DNA of 64,000 bases from Sandaracinus amylolyticus (GTDB taxonomy: Bacteria > Myxococcota_A > Polyangia > Polyangiales > Sandaracinaceae): assembly GCF_021631985.1 (NCBI RefSeq), contig NZ_CP070225.1, positions 10,416,001 through 10,480,000 on the forward strand, in the 5' to 3' direction. Positions 20,254 to 25,655 of the stretch are shown in pieces. The stretch's first letter is position 1. Each line of letters opens with the position of its first letter. Position numbers and translations under genes: made by a program. Below the pieces are notes generated by a model. That model was not told the origin of the DNA. It saw only the letters and a program-made list of their open reading frames with translations, and made no database searches.

Positions 20254-21591
20254 TCAGCGATCCTGCGTCATGTCGCGGAAGCGCACGCCCGCGTAGCGCG
20301 CCGCGAGCAGCCACACCGCGACCAGCGCGATCACCGCGATGCTGAGCCAGCGGATCGTCGAGAAGTCGGTGAACACCGTGGTCACGAGCAGGCTCACGCC
20401 GACCGCGATCGACTTCGCGAAGCGCTGCACGAACATGTCGAGGAACGCCTTCGCCTTGTACTTCTCGTCGCGGCTCGTCGGCGTGTAGAGCGCTTCCTTC
20501 GCCGACTGGTTGATCGAGTAGCTGAACGCGTTGTCGGCGGTGTTGAGCAGGCTGCCGCTCCAGAGGATCGGCACGATCAGGTAACCCGTCGACGCGGCGA
20601 GGATCACCAGCGGCGTCGTCATCAGCGACACCACGAGCGGGAAGCGGCTCATCACCAGCGTCGTCACGAAGATCTGCACGAAGAGCGCGGCGACGTTGGT
20701 GATCGTGAAGACGAGCGCGAACTGCTCGCCGATCGCCTCGTCGTCGAGGAAGTGCGCGACCGTCGACGTGAACTGGAAGTCGAGCAGCGTCGACACGATC
20801 TCGTAGAGCCCGACGATCGCCGCGATCGCGAGGAGATACGGCGAGTGCGCCACCAGGCGCGCGCCGGCGATCACCGGATTGCCCACGTCGGGCGCGCTCG
20901 GCGCCGACGCTCGCACCGGCTCGGGATCGCGCGCCTCGCGACCCGCGACGACGCGACCGGCCAGGCCCGCGAGCAGCGCCGCGACCGCGGTCGTGCCCAC
21001 GCAGATCCACAGCCACGTCGAGTGCTCGATCGAGTCGATCCACGCCGAGAGCACCGAGCTCCCGAACGCGCCGCCCGCGACGCCGCCGAGCACGATCGGC
21101 GGGTAGAGCCGCTTCGCCTCCTCGGGGCTCACGCTGTCGTTCAGGAACGCGAAGAACGTCGCGACCATCAGCGTCGTGTAGAGGTCGCCCAGCAGGTAGA
21201 ACGACCACACGACGAAGTGGCCCGGGTCCGTGATGACGAGCGCGTACCCCGCGAGCGCGACCACGAAGAACCCCGCGAACACGAACGTGAGCTTCTCGCG
21301 GTGCAGCGTGCGCGAGAGCGCCGAGAACACGATCACCGCGAGCGCGGCGACCACCATGTTCGCGACCTTCGCGAGGAGCTCGGCCTGGGCGGCGTGCAGG
21401 TGCCAGCCCGCGAGGTCGAGCCCGTGCTCGTCGTAGAAGGCGACGAAGATCCCCTTCTTGATCGGCTTGAGCACCCAGAACGTCGCGATCACCAGGAAGA
21501 AGTGGGCGAACATCGGGATCGCCAGCGGCCACTCGCCGGGTCGCACGTCGAGGAGCGAGCGAACGGGCGATTTTTTCTGGGTATCGGGCAC
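20254..21591 (-). CDS. Npt/Tlc-like nucleotide transporter (MFS-type)
   Basis: A 445-aa, roughly 12-helix protein. The first helix region, VIATFWVLKPIKKGIFVAF, matches the VLRPLRDALF-type motif at the start of ATP/ADP translocase-like (Npt1/Tlc) proteins, and the loop RLYPPIVLGGVAGGAFGS is also characteristic. The family exchanges NTPs and NDPs across membranes in intracellular bacteria and plastids; free-living bacterial members have no established substrate. The GTG at 21591 is preferred because upstream starts run into the divergent PAP2 gene. A second, larger member of the same family is 2 kb away (23355). Confidence 0.75.
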   Translation of the reverse strand: MPDTQKKSPVRSLLDVRPGEWPLAIPMFAHFFLVIATFWVLKPIKKGIFVAFYDEHGLDLAGWHLHAAQAELLAKVANMVVAALAVIVFSALSRTLHREKLTFVFAGFFVVALAGYALVITDPGHFVVWSFYLLGDLYTTLMVATFFAFLNDSVSPEEAKRLYPPIVLGGVAGGAFGSSVLSAWIDSIEHSTWLWICVGTTAVAALLAGLAGRVVAGREARDPEPVRASAPSAPDVGNPVIAGARLVAHSPYLLAIAAIVGLYEIVSTLLDFQFTSTVAHFLDDEAIGEQFALVFTITNVAALFVQIFVTTLVMSRFPLVVSLMTTPLVILAASTGYLIVPILWSGSLLNTADNAFSYSINQSAKEALYTPTSRDEKYKAKAFLDMFVQRFAKSIAVGVSLLVTTVFTDFSTIRWLSIAVIALVAVWLLAARYAGVRFRDMTQDR

Positions 21592-21617
21592 GTCGGGTCG
21601 CGCAGCTTGCCTCGACG

Positions 21618-22619
21618 ATGGGCACGGCGCTCGCCGTTCCGAGCCTGGACGTTCGGGCAGCAACCCTGGCGCATTCGCGATCCGGGCATCAGGGTTTCCG
21701 CCGCGCTCTCCTCCTCCGACGTCCTGCCAGCGAGCTGTCGAGCTTGGCGAAGACCCCGCTCCTCCGAACCTCCGCGCTCGCGCTCGCGCTCGTCGCGAGC
21801 ACGTCGATCGCCTCCGCGCAGGAGGCCGCGCCCAGCGCGTCGCCGAGGTCCGCGTCTGCCGGGGTCACCTCGCCGATGCCGCCCACGATCGTCGAGCCGG
21901 TGCGCGACTTCGCGCTGACCCTCGCGCCCGCGCCGGTCAGCGACGGGCGCTGGCGGGGCGGCATCCTGTTCGACGAGGCGTTCCGCTCGGCGATCCGGCT
22001 GAGCGCGGTCGAGGACCAGGAGATCGCGCGACACGTCAGCGACGTGTTGCTCCTCACGGTGCCGCTGGTCGCCCTCGTCGACGGCCTCGCGACGCCGCTC
22101 GCCCAGGGCAACGGCGAGCTCGCGTGGCGGGCGACGTTCGCGCACGTGCTCGCGCTGGGCGTGACGCTCGGCGCGGGTGAGATCGTGAAGCGCGCGGCGG
22201 GGCGTGCGCGGCCCTTCGAGCGCGACTGCGCCGAGGACCCCACGCGTCGCGGCTGCGGCGACTCCGACATCTTCTCGTCGTTCTACAGCCTGCACAGCGG
22301 CGTCACGTTCACGTCGGCGGGCTTCATGTGCGCGATGCACGGCGTGCGCGGCATGTACGGGAACACCGCGGCCGACGCGACCGCGTGCGGCGTGTCGATC
22401 GCGATGGCGGCGACCACCGGGCTGCTGCGGGTGGTCTCGGATCGCCACTACATCTCCGACGTGCTCGTCGGGGCGGCGCTCGGGTTCCTGGTGGGGTTCT
22501 TCCTGCCGCTCGCGATCGTGCCCGAGATCGACCACGCGCAGCCGACGCCGGTCACGCCGCAGGCCCTCGAAGGGCCGCCGCCGGTGATGATCGGGCCGAC
22601 GTTCTCCGGAACGTTCTGA
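21618..22619 (+). CDS. Exported PAP2-family phosphatase
   Basis: A type 2 phosphatidic acid phosphatase-related enzyme, 333 aa from the ATG. The three PAP2 motifs are visible: KRAAGRARPF, SFYSLHSG (PSGH-like, with the catalytic His) and SDRHYISDVLVG (R-x5-H-x3-D). It should dephosphorylate lipid or undecaprenyl phosphates outside the membrane. Residues 43-68 are a good signal peptide (ALALALVASTSIASAQ), so the in-frame TTG at 21744 may be the real start; neither start has a clear ribosome site. The motif-2 Pro is replaced by Leu, but the His and Ser-Gly remain. Confidence 0.87.
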   Translation: MGTALAVPSLDVRAATLAHSRSGHQGFRRALLLRRPASELSSLAKTPLLRTSALALALVASTSIASAQEAAPSASPRSASAGVTSPMPPTIVEPVRDFALTLAPAPVSDGRWRGGILFDEAFRSAIRLSAVEDQEIARHVSDVLLLTVPLVALVDGLATPLAQGNGELAWRATFAHVLALGVTLGAGEIVKRAAGRARPFERDCAEDPTRRGCGDSDIFSSFYSLHSGVTFTSAGFMCAMHGVRGMYGNTAADATACGVSIAMAATTGLLRVVSDRHYISDVLVGAALGFLVGFFLPLAIVPEIDHAQPTPVTPQALEGPPPVMIGPTFSGTF

Positions 22620-22649
22620 TCATCGATCGTCGGAGAGGCTTCGGCGAGA

Positions 22650-22834
22650 GGCGCGGGGCGGTGGGTCCGACGCCCTGTGTGCTCGCGGGCTGCCGTACGA
22701 GAGGGCGCGAGCGTCGGGAAGCGGTGGGCGCATCGCGGCGCGCACTTCGCGCTCTGCCGCGATGCTTCGATCAGTCTGTGGTCGGCCTCGGTGGCCCCCG
22801 TCGCACGAGGGCGTCGGACCCACCGCCCCGCGCC
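22650..22834. repeat. 185-base element closed by a perfect 27-bp inverted repeat
   Basis: The arms 22650-22676 and 22808-22834 are exact reverse complements (left arm begins GGCGCGGGGCGG). Inside are at least three smaller stems: GCTCGCG/CGCGAGC (22681-22712), GCATCGCGGC/GCCGCGATGC (22730-22765) and GGCC/GGCC (22784-22796). Folded as RNA this gives a closed multi-branch shape. It could be a structured RNA, or a miniature transposable element with 27-bp terminal inverted repeats, though no target-site duplication is visible at the borders. Confidence 0.6.
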
Positions 22835-23115
22835 CGGTACCGCGGTTCTGCCGCCTCGCGTGGTGAGGTGGTGGATGGCTCGCGCCCGGTCCGCGCTTCG
22901 CCGCGGCCCGGACCCTCGCGTGTAGCACCGCGCTTCGCGCGTGTGCGCGCTGGCGCGCGGTACGAGCTGCATGCGGATGGGCTCGATGAGGAGCGCATCG
23001 ATCCTCCGCGCCCCGACGGGAGGATCGAATCCGGGTCGAGGGGGTGCGAATCGCCGTCGTGTGGGGCCTCGATCGCGACAAGCCGGCCGCGCGAGCCCGA
23101 TGAGCTGGGCTCGGA

Positions 23116-23184
23116 AGGCCAGATGTCGGCCTCGCGACCCCGGTGCGCCGGCCTCGAGAGGCCAGATGTCGGCCTCGCGACCCC
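23116..23184. repeat. 26-bp direct repeat, two copies at 43-bp spacing
   Basis: The unit starting AGGCCAGATGTCGGCC occurs at 23116-23141 and 23159-23184 without mismatch. Each contains a small GGCC/GGCC inverted repeat around AGATGTC. A period of 43 is not a multiple of three, so the repeat is not coding. Function unknown. Confidence 0.6.
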
Positions 23185-23273: not shown

Positions 23274-23337
23274 GATCGAAATTCGATCGATCTGCGTCAA
23301 CTCGCGATCGAAATTCGATCGATTTGTGTCGACTCGC
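23274..23337. repeat. Two tandem 32-bp units, each with an inverted repeat
   Basis: Units 23274-23305 and 23306-23337 differ at only three or four positions. Each starts with GATCGAAATTCGATC, an inverted repeat with 7- to 8-bp arms around a single central base; a partial third unit (GAATCGATC) follows at 23342. They end about 20 bp before the stop of the transporter gene at 23355. They look like binding sites for a dimeric protein or a 3'-end structure, not coding DNA. Confidence 0.6.
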
Positions 23338-23354
23338 GCGCGAATCGATCGCGC

Positions 23355-25655
23355 TCAGCCCCGCGGGCGTACGATCGGCAGGCTCTCTTGCGAGCGCAGC
23401 AGCTCCGCGACGATCTCCTCGCGGCTGCGCGCGCGGATCTCGGAGCGCGGGCGCGCTGCGAGCACCGGGATCAGCGAGCTGCGCACCGGCTCGGGCACGA
23501 CGTTCTCGAGCAGCTCGATCGCGGTGCCGCGGATCTTCTCGTCATGCGCCGACAGGCCGCGCAGCGCGAGCTGCAGCGACTCGCCCTCGACCACCAGCGA
23601 GAGCAGCGTGAGCACGTACTGCAGGCTGCGGCTCGCGCGCATGCGCACCAGCTCGTCGAGCGAGATCGGCTCGTCGTCGTGGTGATCCGGGTGGTTCGGG
23701 TCGTGGGGCGCGATCGTCGCGACCGCGCTCCAGGTCGCGCCGCGCTCGCCGAGCTCGCGCTCCACCGCGCCGAACACGACGGTGCTCGGCGGCGCCAGCG
23801 CGGAGTCGGTCGACGCGAGGTGCACCAGCGCGCGCGCACACTGGAAGCGCACCTCGAGCCGCGGATCGTCGAGCCCCGAGATCAGTCCCTCCGCGGCGCG
23901 CCGCGACGTGCTCACCCGCAGCACGCGCGGGATGCGGAACCGGATCTCGAAGGGCGTGCGCAGATCGAGCAGCGCGTCGATCAACGTGCCGGTGACGCTC
24001 GGCGCGACACGACGGAGCGCGGCGAGCGCGTCGCGACCGAGCTCGGGGTGCGCGAGCAGGTGCAGCGTGATCGGCACGAGCTCGGCGTCGAGCGGCGCGT
24101 CGAGCGCGGCGCGGGTGCGATCGATCGCGCCCGACGCGATCGCGGCGAAGCGCTGCACGATGCTGGGCTCGGTCGGGTGCACCGCGGGCGGCGCCTCGCC
24201 CTCCACCTGCGGCTCGGGGTGCGACTGCACGTCGGCGGTCGCGGCGGCGATCGCCGCGGCCTCGATGCTGCTCAGCGCGGGGCTCTGCCGGCGCAGCGAC
24301 TCGATCTCGGCGAGCAGGCGCTCGCGATCGATCGCCATCGCGGTGTCGGAGAGCGTGCGGCGTGTGGTCGCGTCGAGCGCGCTCTGCTCGTCGAGCTCGA
24401 GCGTCCCGCTGCGCAGCGCTTCCTGCAGCGCCTCGACGTAGCCGCGCGCGATCGAGGGGACCAGGAGCAGCGAGAAGAGCGCCGCGCCCGCCGCGACCAC
24501 CGCGGGCACGATGCCCGGCATGTCGTGCCAGCCGTAGATCAGCGCGAGGACCGCGAGGCTCCCGAGCGCATCGCCGACGCGCGTCGCGGCCACGTCGACG
24601 AGCGTCTTGGTCGGCCGTTTGGTCTGGGGCGGCAGCGGCGTGAAGAAGAGCTCGTACGCCGAGCGATAGAGCGAGTTCGAGAGCACGCTCTCGGCGCCGC
24701 GCAGCACGATCAGCGCGCCGAACGGAAGGCCGAGCAAGAGGCCGAGGCCGCCGAACGCGACGACCAGCGGCGAGAGCGCGACGATGCCGTAGAGCGGGAG
24801 GCGATCGAGCACCGTGCGCCCGAGCCCCGACTGCACGAGGAACGTGACGAGGCTGGTGCCCGTGTAGAACCACGCGAAGAAGCGCACGAGCGAGGTCTCG
24901 TCGACGTACGCCGCGTCGGCCTGCGCCTTGAACGCGTAGTCGAGCAGCGCGGCCCACACCGCGGCGAGCAGCGAGAGCGCGGAGAGCGTGCGCAGGTACG
25001 GCGTGCGGCCGACGAGCTTCAGCGCGCGCGCGGTCTGCGGCTCGGAGAGGGGCGTGCCGTCCTCGTCGGCGAGGCCTCGCCCGAACCGGTGGATCAGCGC
25101 CCCCGCGGCGATGCTCGCGCCGGCGAGCACGAGCAGCATCGGACGCGCGCCGAGGTTGCCCGCGATCACGTCGGCCGAGACGCCGCCGAGCACACCCCCG
25201 AAGGTGCCGCCCGCCGCGACGCGCGAGACGAACGCGCGCGCCCGCCGGGGATCGTAGCGCTCCGAGACGAGGGTCCAGAACCCGCTGATCAACACCGAGC
25301 CCAGCGCCGCGACGTGCAGGTAGATCGCGACCGCGACTCCGTCGCGGAAGAGCGGCTGTGCGAGCCACTCGATCGCGAAGAAGGTCGCGTTCACGCCGAG
25401 CGCCGCGGGCACGGTGCGCGAGGGCCCGCGGACCGCCATCGCGTTCGACATCGCGAGCACGGCGAGCAGCGAGAGCAGCGCGCCCGCGCCCATGACGATC
25501 GGGAGGCGGCGCGGATCGAACGACGTGAGGAAGAGCGCGTCGCGGGTCGCCTTGCCCGCGACCTGCTGAGCGACGAGCAGCGCGGCCGCGCCGCCGGCGA
25601 GGAAGAGCTCCGCGCGCTTGGTCGTCGGCGATGCAGGTGCGCGCTCCCGCGTCAC
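23355..25655 (-). CDS. Npt/Tlc-like MFS transporter fused to HEAT-like repeats
   Basis: A 766-aa protein. Residues 15-430 form about 12 helices; VAQQVAGKATRDALFLTSF near the start and AAGGTFGGVLGG in a middle loop resemble ATP/ADP translocase-like (Npt1) carriers. The C-terminal 300 residues are soluble helical pairs in HEAT-like style (for example HLLAHPELGRDALAALRRV and EGLISGLDDPRLEVRFQCAR). Similar transporter-HEAT fusions are known as an uncharacterised branch of the family. It is the last gene of a one-direction cluster with the barrel gene 25 nt upstream, the kinase-like lipoprotein and a Ser/Thr kinase. Substrate unknown; nucleotide transport is an inference from family. Confidence 0.77.
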   Translation of the reverse strand: MTRERAPASPTTKRAELFLAGGAAALLVAQQVAGKATRDALFLTSFDPRRLPIVMGAGALLSLLAVLAMSNAMAVRGPSRTVPAALGVNATFFAIEWLAQPLFRDGVAVAIYLHVAALGSVLISGFWTLVSERYDPRRARAFVSRVAAGGTFGGVLGGVSADVIAGNLGARPMLLVLAGASIAAGALIHRFGRGLADEDGTPLSEPQTARALKLVGRTPYLRTLSALSLLAAVWAALLDYAFKAQADAAYVDETSLVRFFAWFYTGTSLVTFLVQSGLGRTVLDRLPLYGIVALSPLVVAFGGLGLLLGLPFGALIVLRGAESVLSNSLYRSAYELFFTPLPPQTKRPTKTLVDVAATRVGDALGSLAVLALIYGWHDMPGIVPAVVAAGAALFSLLLVPSIARGYVEALQEALRSGTLELDEQSALDATTRRTLSDTAMAIDRERLLAEIESLRRQSPALSSIEAAAIAAATADVQSHPEPQVEGEAPPAVHPTEPSIVQRFAAIASGAIDRTRAALDAPLDAELVPITLHLLAHPELGRDALAALRRVAPSVTGTLIDALLDLRTPFEIRFRIPRVLRVSTSRRAAEGLISGLDDPRLEVRFQCARALVHLASTDSALAPPSTVVFGAVERELGERGATWSAVATIAPHDPNHPDHHDDEPISLDELVRMRASRSLQYVLTLLSLVVEGESLQLALRGLSAHDEKIRGTAIELLENVVPEPVRSSLIPVLAARPRSEIRARSREEIVAELLRSQESLPIVRPRG

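Follow-up and report, generated by a model that had tools for sequence, protein, structure and literature searches.

The inverted repeat and the element around it

The window, by which we mean the whole 64,000-nt stretch of the Sandaracinus amylolyticus genome that was analysed, carries a PAP2-family gene that is followed, about 12 nt past its TGA stop codon, by a palindromic element on the plus strand. The PAP2 gene and the element are flanked by two TLC ATP/ADP-transporter-like genes on the minus strand (20254-21663 and 23355-25655; PF03219, E 9.5e-19 and 2.8e-6). TLC ATP/ADP carriers are best known from intracellular bacteria and plastids. Two tandem arrays lie downstream of the element, at 23084-23184 (43-nt unit, 2.3 copies) and at 23274-23338 (32-nt unit, 2.0 copies).

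The original prediction of a perfect 27-bp inverted repeat, far beyond chance even in GC-rich DNA, was borne out on both counts. The two arms (22650-22676 and 22808-22834) are 27 nt each, 100% complementary and 131 nt apart; allowing up to three mismatches, matches to the arm occur in the window at those two places alone, and none occurred in 100 shuffles. RNA folding of 22640-22844 yielded -147 kcal/mol (z -7.3), which none of 200 shuffles equalled. The further claim that the repeat encloses at least three internal hairpins stood only in part: the interior is branched when the stretch is folded as single-strand DNA or as minus-strand RNA, whereas the plus-strand RNA fold is a single extended stem with an inner hairpin. 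Of the inner hairpins, one (22731-22764) was counted on the alignment of copies, with double-sided changes at 4/9 pairs of its outer helix.

The predicted bounds of 185 bases (22650-22834) proved too narrow. When the window was aligned with 38 fetched loci, conservation was found to span about 22632 to about 22960, with none beyond, and the most alike pair of copies leads to the same limits. These two copies, L048 and L063, both from the sister species' genome (G001; the window's genome is G000), have cores that are 96.5% identical, any other within-genome pair being at most 90.6% identical. Their identity starts at the head and stops at the tail end, which defines the copied unit. On this sequence evidence, the 27-bp inverted repeat is the main stem of an element of about 330 nt, at about 22632-22960 on the plus strand, with the following features:

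22617-22619, plus strand: TGA stop codon of the upstream PAP2-family gene (ORF 21618-22619; PAP2 domain, E 3e-14)
22632-22960, plus strand: whole element, a 284-nt core and a type-A tail, ends within about 5 nt either way (conservation across copies; unit common to L048 and L063)
22632-22649, plus strand: 5' head, which supplies the upstream gene's stop codon in several copies
22650-22676, plus strand: 5' arm of the long stem P1 (arm complementarity and covariation)
22682-22683, plus strand: CT, the insertion point of an IS110-family element in nine other copies (target GGTG-CT-CGCGGGC)
22731-22764, plus strand: inner hairpin, with partial covariation support
22808-22834, plus strand: 3' arm of the long stem P1 (arm complementarity and covariation)
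22835-22877, plus strand: linker with a conserved block, GGTACCGCGGTTCTGCCG (core alignment)
22878-22919, plus strand: second hairpin, H3 (double-sided changes at 6/13 pairs; 98.0% of cells paired)
22921-22960, plus strand: type-A tail (GTAGCACCGCGC...), replaced by tail B or C in other copies

The 67 complete 3' ends divide into 36 with tail A, 22 with tail B and 9 with tail C; main-subfamily cores were found with each of them. A tail-A pattern, searched with up to two mismatches, gave 35 matches in the two genomes, 34 of them immediately following a core, whole or partial, and one forming a second, tandem tail; given this position behind cores, the tail is part of the element. GC-rich tandem repeats also lie 3' of the tail in many copies (L014, L018, L029, L031 and others), for example GCGACGGCACGCGCGGAGCGCGGGACG units behind tail B. 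A protein-coding reading seems unlikely: the stems covary, copies differ by insertions and deletions, and the ORFs listed over the element overlap in several frames on both strands.

Copy number and distribution

Homologues of the repeat, which the original prediction had named as a check, were found in two species. A 205-nt query returned at least 40 scored candidates at 70-100% identity from the window's genome. With a covariance model of the core, 62 matches were obtained there and 52 in the sister species, of which 41 and 36, respectively, reached at least 140 bits; among the weaker matches are incomplete copies and shadows of the palindrome on the opposite strand. Under stricter filters, the same model matched 2 of 76 relatives, namely these two genomes, and gave no match in the other 74, including a third, fragmented genome of the genus. 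A DNA search of 56 relatives returned, outside the two species, one short match in each of 13 genomes (E 4e-5 to 9e-4), which we took as chance. Searches of wider collections, which may omit the window's own or very near genomes, gave no blastn match among plasmids and phages and no match to one exact 18-base pattern among viral contigs; of two exact patterns sought in genome contigs, one had no match and the other had 10 single matches in unrelated taxa, the best model match among them having an E of 0.04 (L162). Within these searches the element is genus-restricted, with dozens of copies in two closely related species. No description of it was found in the available portions of the open-licence literature on Sandaracinus repeats, myxobacterial repeats or REP sequences at stop codons; in the portion available of PMC5010890, repeats are mentioned only for CRISPR and IS searches.

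Placement at gene ends

Placement was analysed for 61 copies without an IS split from both genomes, relative to gene calls made for this analysis by hexamer scoring of ORFs, which are not an annotation. In 51 of these copies the element sits in sense orientation behind a gene on the same strand, and in 48 the end of the stop codon falls anywhere from 15 nt inside the core to 25 nt before it. The core starts at most 7 nt past the stop codon, or overlaps it, in 39/50 copies, against 9.8 expected under random placement in the same gaps (maximum 22 in 100,000 draws). Because many sites are common to both species, the placement was also tested per genome, with 24/30 copies against 6.0 expected in G000 and 15/20 against 3.8 in G001. 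In some copies the upstream gene takes its stop codon from the head of the element. The 3' side is unconstrained: downstream genes are on the same strand in 26 cases and on the opposite strand in 24, with no excess of convergent pairs. The remaining 10 of the 61 copies lie behind a gene on the opposite strand, the distance to its called start being 3-70 nt for nine of them and 351 nt for the other.

An association with one kind of host gene was ruled out, as no Pfam family occurred in more than two of 44 upstream proteins (from 61 prepared references). At one locus (L041, G000:C1:6361950-6366976), two copies in opposite orientation face each other between convergent genes, each directly behind its own stop codon.

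Insertion of an IS110-family element at a fixed point

Nine copies, four in G000 (L027, L033, L036 and L037) and five in G001 (C1, near 2464462, 6441393, 8454920, 8866551 and 9232297), are interrupted at core position 44/45 by an IS110-family element. The insert in the four loci read (L100, L104, L135 and L145) is 1745-1746 nt long with CT on both sides, at the target GGTG-CT-CGCGGGC. The window copy reads TGTG-CT-CGCGGGC at this point and is without an insertion. The one transposase scanned, that of L027, matched PF02371 (E 1.3e-11), with PF01548 below its cut-off. Two orthologous sites are unsplit in G000 and split in G001 (L016/L100 and L023/L104) and the reverse is seen at L135/L069, which identifies the IS110-family element as a visitor of the repeat.

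Gain and loss at orthologous sites

By comparison of flanks, at least 18 sites are filled in both species (16 and two more), and at two further common sites one copy is IS-split (L023/L104 and L069/L135). Flips of orientation between the species were rejected, as the apparent inversion arose from loci read in the orientation of their contigs. We sought another 23 G000 sites in G001, where L020 and L044 were without a match and 21 were fetched and compared. At these 21, the G001 site had no detectable element in 16 cases, an IS-split copy in 2, the 3' part only in 2 and a neighbouring copy only in 1. Among 13 sites read by eye, at least six still hold a 5' remnant, about 11-45 nt long (L101, L102, L103, L105, L109 and L111). 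In the reverse direction, 14 G001 sites were prepared, L122 dropped out, and the ten that were fetched and compared corresponded in G000 to one IS-split copy, one 5' part and eight sites with no element, four of which held remnants, again as judged by eye, including L136, where the hairpin alone is missing. The partial copies and remnants indicate that loss by deletion is common and that many copies predate the split of the species; with many sites lacking the element in the other species, it is dispensable there.

The best case of a younger copy is L063, whose G000 site (L134) has no element, the downstream sequence being unaligned there. At the empty sites read, alignment is lost in the intergenic sequence past the junctions, so that no target duplication was readable. 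The window copy and its partner at the same site in G001 (L088) are 24% different and show, over all helices, eight double Watson-Crick changes (13 with this pair against 5 without it); they look like different subfamilies, as if one copy had been replaced or converted.

Evolution of the stems

Covariation was assessed on an alignment of 62 full cores with 58 pairs, leaving out IS-split and truncated copies and the full-length L025 and L094. Of its 3567 cells, 96.1% pair and 293 are changed on both sides, against a mean of 69.7 in shuffles (0/500 reach 293) and at most 64 in slid controls; the compensatory changes that the original prediction had proposed to look for among homologues are therefore present. 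The long stem (26 pairs, 1606 cells) consists of 1548 Watson-Crick, 3 G-T, 23 C-A and 32 other cells, with 12 of the 23 C-A cells falling in one column pair. Thirteen of its pairs use three or four Watson-Crick types, and its alternative pair types comprise 13 transitions and 23 transversions, near the 1:2 ratio predicted when changes take no wobble route. For RNA genes, the available text of PMC8794818 gives a transition-type share of 61% among instantaneous compensatory changes, and of the two-step ones 78.5% involve G-U pairs; in contrast to these published genes, the long stem combines strong covariation with hardly any G-T and no transition bias. Wobble does occur elsewhere in the element: a short outer helix shows it at two pairs (G-T in 32/62 and T-G in 17/62), and one inner pair is T-G in 56/62. 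In H3, transitions account for 32/47 cells with double changes (counted by type, 3 and 4).

To these comparisons among dispersed copies we added 13 flank-supported pairs of orthologous copies, after masking every column within 2 of a gap. Paired sites had changed in 38/1350 cases (2.8%) and other sites in 234/2209 (10.6%; P 2.6e-19), and the eight pairs that are at least 90% identical gave 15/842 against 117/1380 (P 3.7e-12). This set leaves out the divergent window/L088 pair, L046/L078 and the pairs with an IS-split copy, in which one side is incomplete; adding window/L088 gives 56/1454 paired against 273/2365 other sites (P 6e-18) and 13 double changes. The slower change at paired sites in orthologous copies indicates that the stem is conserved in place. 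Between orthologues, 22 changes are one-sided and 5 are double Watson-Crick changes. Among one-sided ortholog changes C-A stands at 11 and G-T at 1, and the ortholog columns over all helices hold 15 C-A and 13 G-T.

Interpretation

Judged from these sequence comparisons, Watson-Crick pairing in the long stem favours DNA (a hairpin or cruciform, with some correction between arms) over a sense RNA. The reading that we favour, with somewhat better than even confidence, is of a genus-restricted, apparently non-coding and non-autonomous REP/MITE-like element of about 330 nt that a putative trans-acting mover brought to gene 3' ends, and whose stem, conserved there as a duplex of Watson-Crick pairs, probably serves to mark or insulate the end of the gene. 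Copying by the mover would predate the split of the species, and the element would have moved little afterwards. The stem would then be held as a strict Watson-Crick duplex through selection for a hairpin or cruciform, and template switching between the arms probably helps to keep it matched. The hairpin or cruciform may mark or insulate the gene end as a transcription boundary, as an mRNA 3' end, or as a protein or topology site. Against this reading, no mover was found and no target duplication read, ten of the 61 copies lie behind an opposite-strand gene, transitions dominate the H3 double changes by cells, many sites are without the element in the other species, and the 11:1 ratio of C-A over G-T in one-sided ortholog changes is not predicted by a purely DNA-level constraint. 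Furthermore, the wobble pairs outside the long stem leave room for an RNA role. As to the original prediction of a structured RNA or a MITE-like element, what endures is a dispersed, MITE-sized palindromic repeat; the long-stem pairing speaks against a structured RNA of the plus strand, and the internal position of the repeats, together with the lack of a parent IS in the loci fetched, against a classical MITE.

A bolder version, which we hold only tentatively, is that a mobile palindrome has been turned into a host gene-end module, a large sense hairpin at the stop codons of dozens of unrelated genes; selection would act on its Watson-Crick structure in DNA (or on a minus-strand RNA), and the hairpin would insulate the gene end. 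If true, arrival at stop codons would imply that a mobile element can recognise where coding sequences end.

It is rather unlikely that the element is a structured RNA of the sense 3' UTR (a terminator, a 3'-end stabiliser or an RNase III site) selected as RNA. This would account for the sense orientation and the close position behind stop codons, for the stable fold and the covariation, and for the wobble pairs of the outer helix and of one inner pair. The long stem itself argues otherwise, in its few G-T against its C-A cells and in transversion types outnumbering transitions where RNA genes favour the latter (PMC8794818, as far as its available text goes), as does the single G-T beside 11 C-A among one-sided ortholog changes. 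Moreover, a known RNA family was rejected for lack of an Rfam match: the window gave none at gathering score, and of two scans at relaxed thresholds one returned a sub-threshold and implausible MIR1437 (E 0.09; score 23.8 bits, cut-off 168) and the other nothing.

We consider it improbable that the palindrome is neutral, perfect only through template switching from arm to arm and without function in place. A template-switching mechanism for paired changes is proposed in the available part of PMC8794818 and would suit Watson-Crick double changes that are mostly transversions, as well as a double change in the stem that separates L048 from L063 within their unit of about 330 nt. By argument, unbiased copying between arms would not, however, slow divergence, and paired sites diverged less than others; orthologues also show more one-sided than double Watson-Crick changes.

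An origin as a classical MITE, derived from an IS and moved by that IS's transposase, is improbable to the same degree. Such an origin would fit the size, copy number, inverted repeats, dispersal and one young copy, but the inverted repeats are internal, the sequence between the repeats and the tails is conserved and structured, and most copies start at stop codons; no related IS was seen in the loci read, the IS110-family element being inside copies and not a parent.

Finally, a functional minus-strand RNA, such as a terminator or antisense boundary for transcription toward the gene end, is less likely still: plus-strand C-A would be G-U on the minus strand, in keeping with the 11:1 one-sided ortholog changes and the 23:3 long-stem cells, but C-A and G-T are nearly balanced in the all-helix columns, one column pair supplies 12 of the 23 long-stem C-A cells, and downstream genes show neither a preferred strand nor a convergent excess.

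For further work, the two genomes offer about 77 natural replicates of one long hairpin (41 and 36, including nine IS-split copies) whose distances from stop codons are known, along with filled, partly deleted and empty orthologous sites. With these, two questions become testable: whether gene-end hairpins work at the DNA or the RNA level, and by what route a repeat reaches stop codons.

Comparison with known repeats

Several features are common to MITEs and to the enterobacterial repeat units RU-1 and RU-2, which are ERIC-like (RU units: PMC2759123, in the part available): the element is MITE-sized, non-coding and interspersed, and has inverted repeats. Unlike in a MITE, the inverted repeat is not terminal and leaves about 18 nt of the element on its 5' side and about 126 nt on its 3' side; unlike in MITEs and RU units, most copies stand in sense orientation at stop codons. 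No parent IS with the same ends was seen in the loci fetched.

The likeness to REP/BIME is in palindromic structure, extragenic position and many copies, and extends to the stop codon, since REP termini often provide that of the flanking ORF (PMC3733652, available text). REP/BIME palindromes have a GTAG (or CGTC) tetranucleotide at their foot; here GTAG or GTCG opens tails A and C ahead of a hairpin, and tail B (22 of the 67 complete 3' ends) is without it. Differences lie in size, REP sequences being 20-40 bp in the same portion of PMC3733652 against about 330 nt here, and in composition, as one fixed composite unit is found here. A RAYT-driven REP is disfavoured for the window's genome, which gave no match to the Y1 transposase domain (PF01797) present in 5/14 control genomes. 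By analogy, the element would thus work like an oversized REP/BIME, a comparison of behaviour that makes no claim of family membership.

Like REP sequences, the element is also a target of the IS110 family, which in the section available of a 2006 survey is the family most represented among REP-associated IS (PMC1525189). IS621 inserts into REP sequences at a CT core (PMC11208160, available part); here, too, an IS110-family element goes into a single position of a repeat and is bordered by CT on either side, with the difference that both the repeat and the genus are others. The IS110-family element and its repeat target are a candidate for a natural bridge-RNA system, and they extend the link between palindromic repeats and the IS110 family to a myxobacterial genus.
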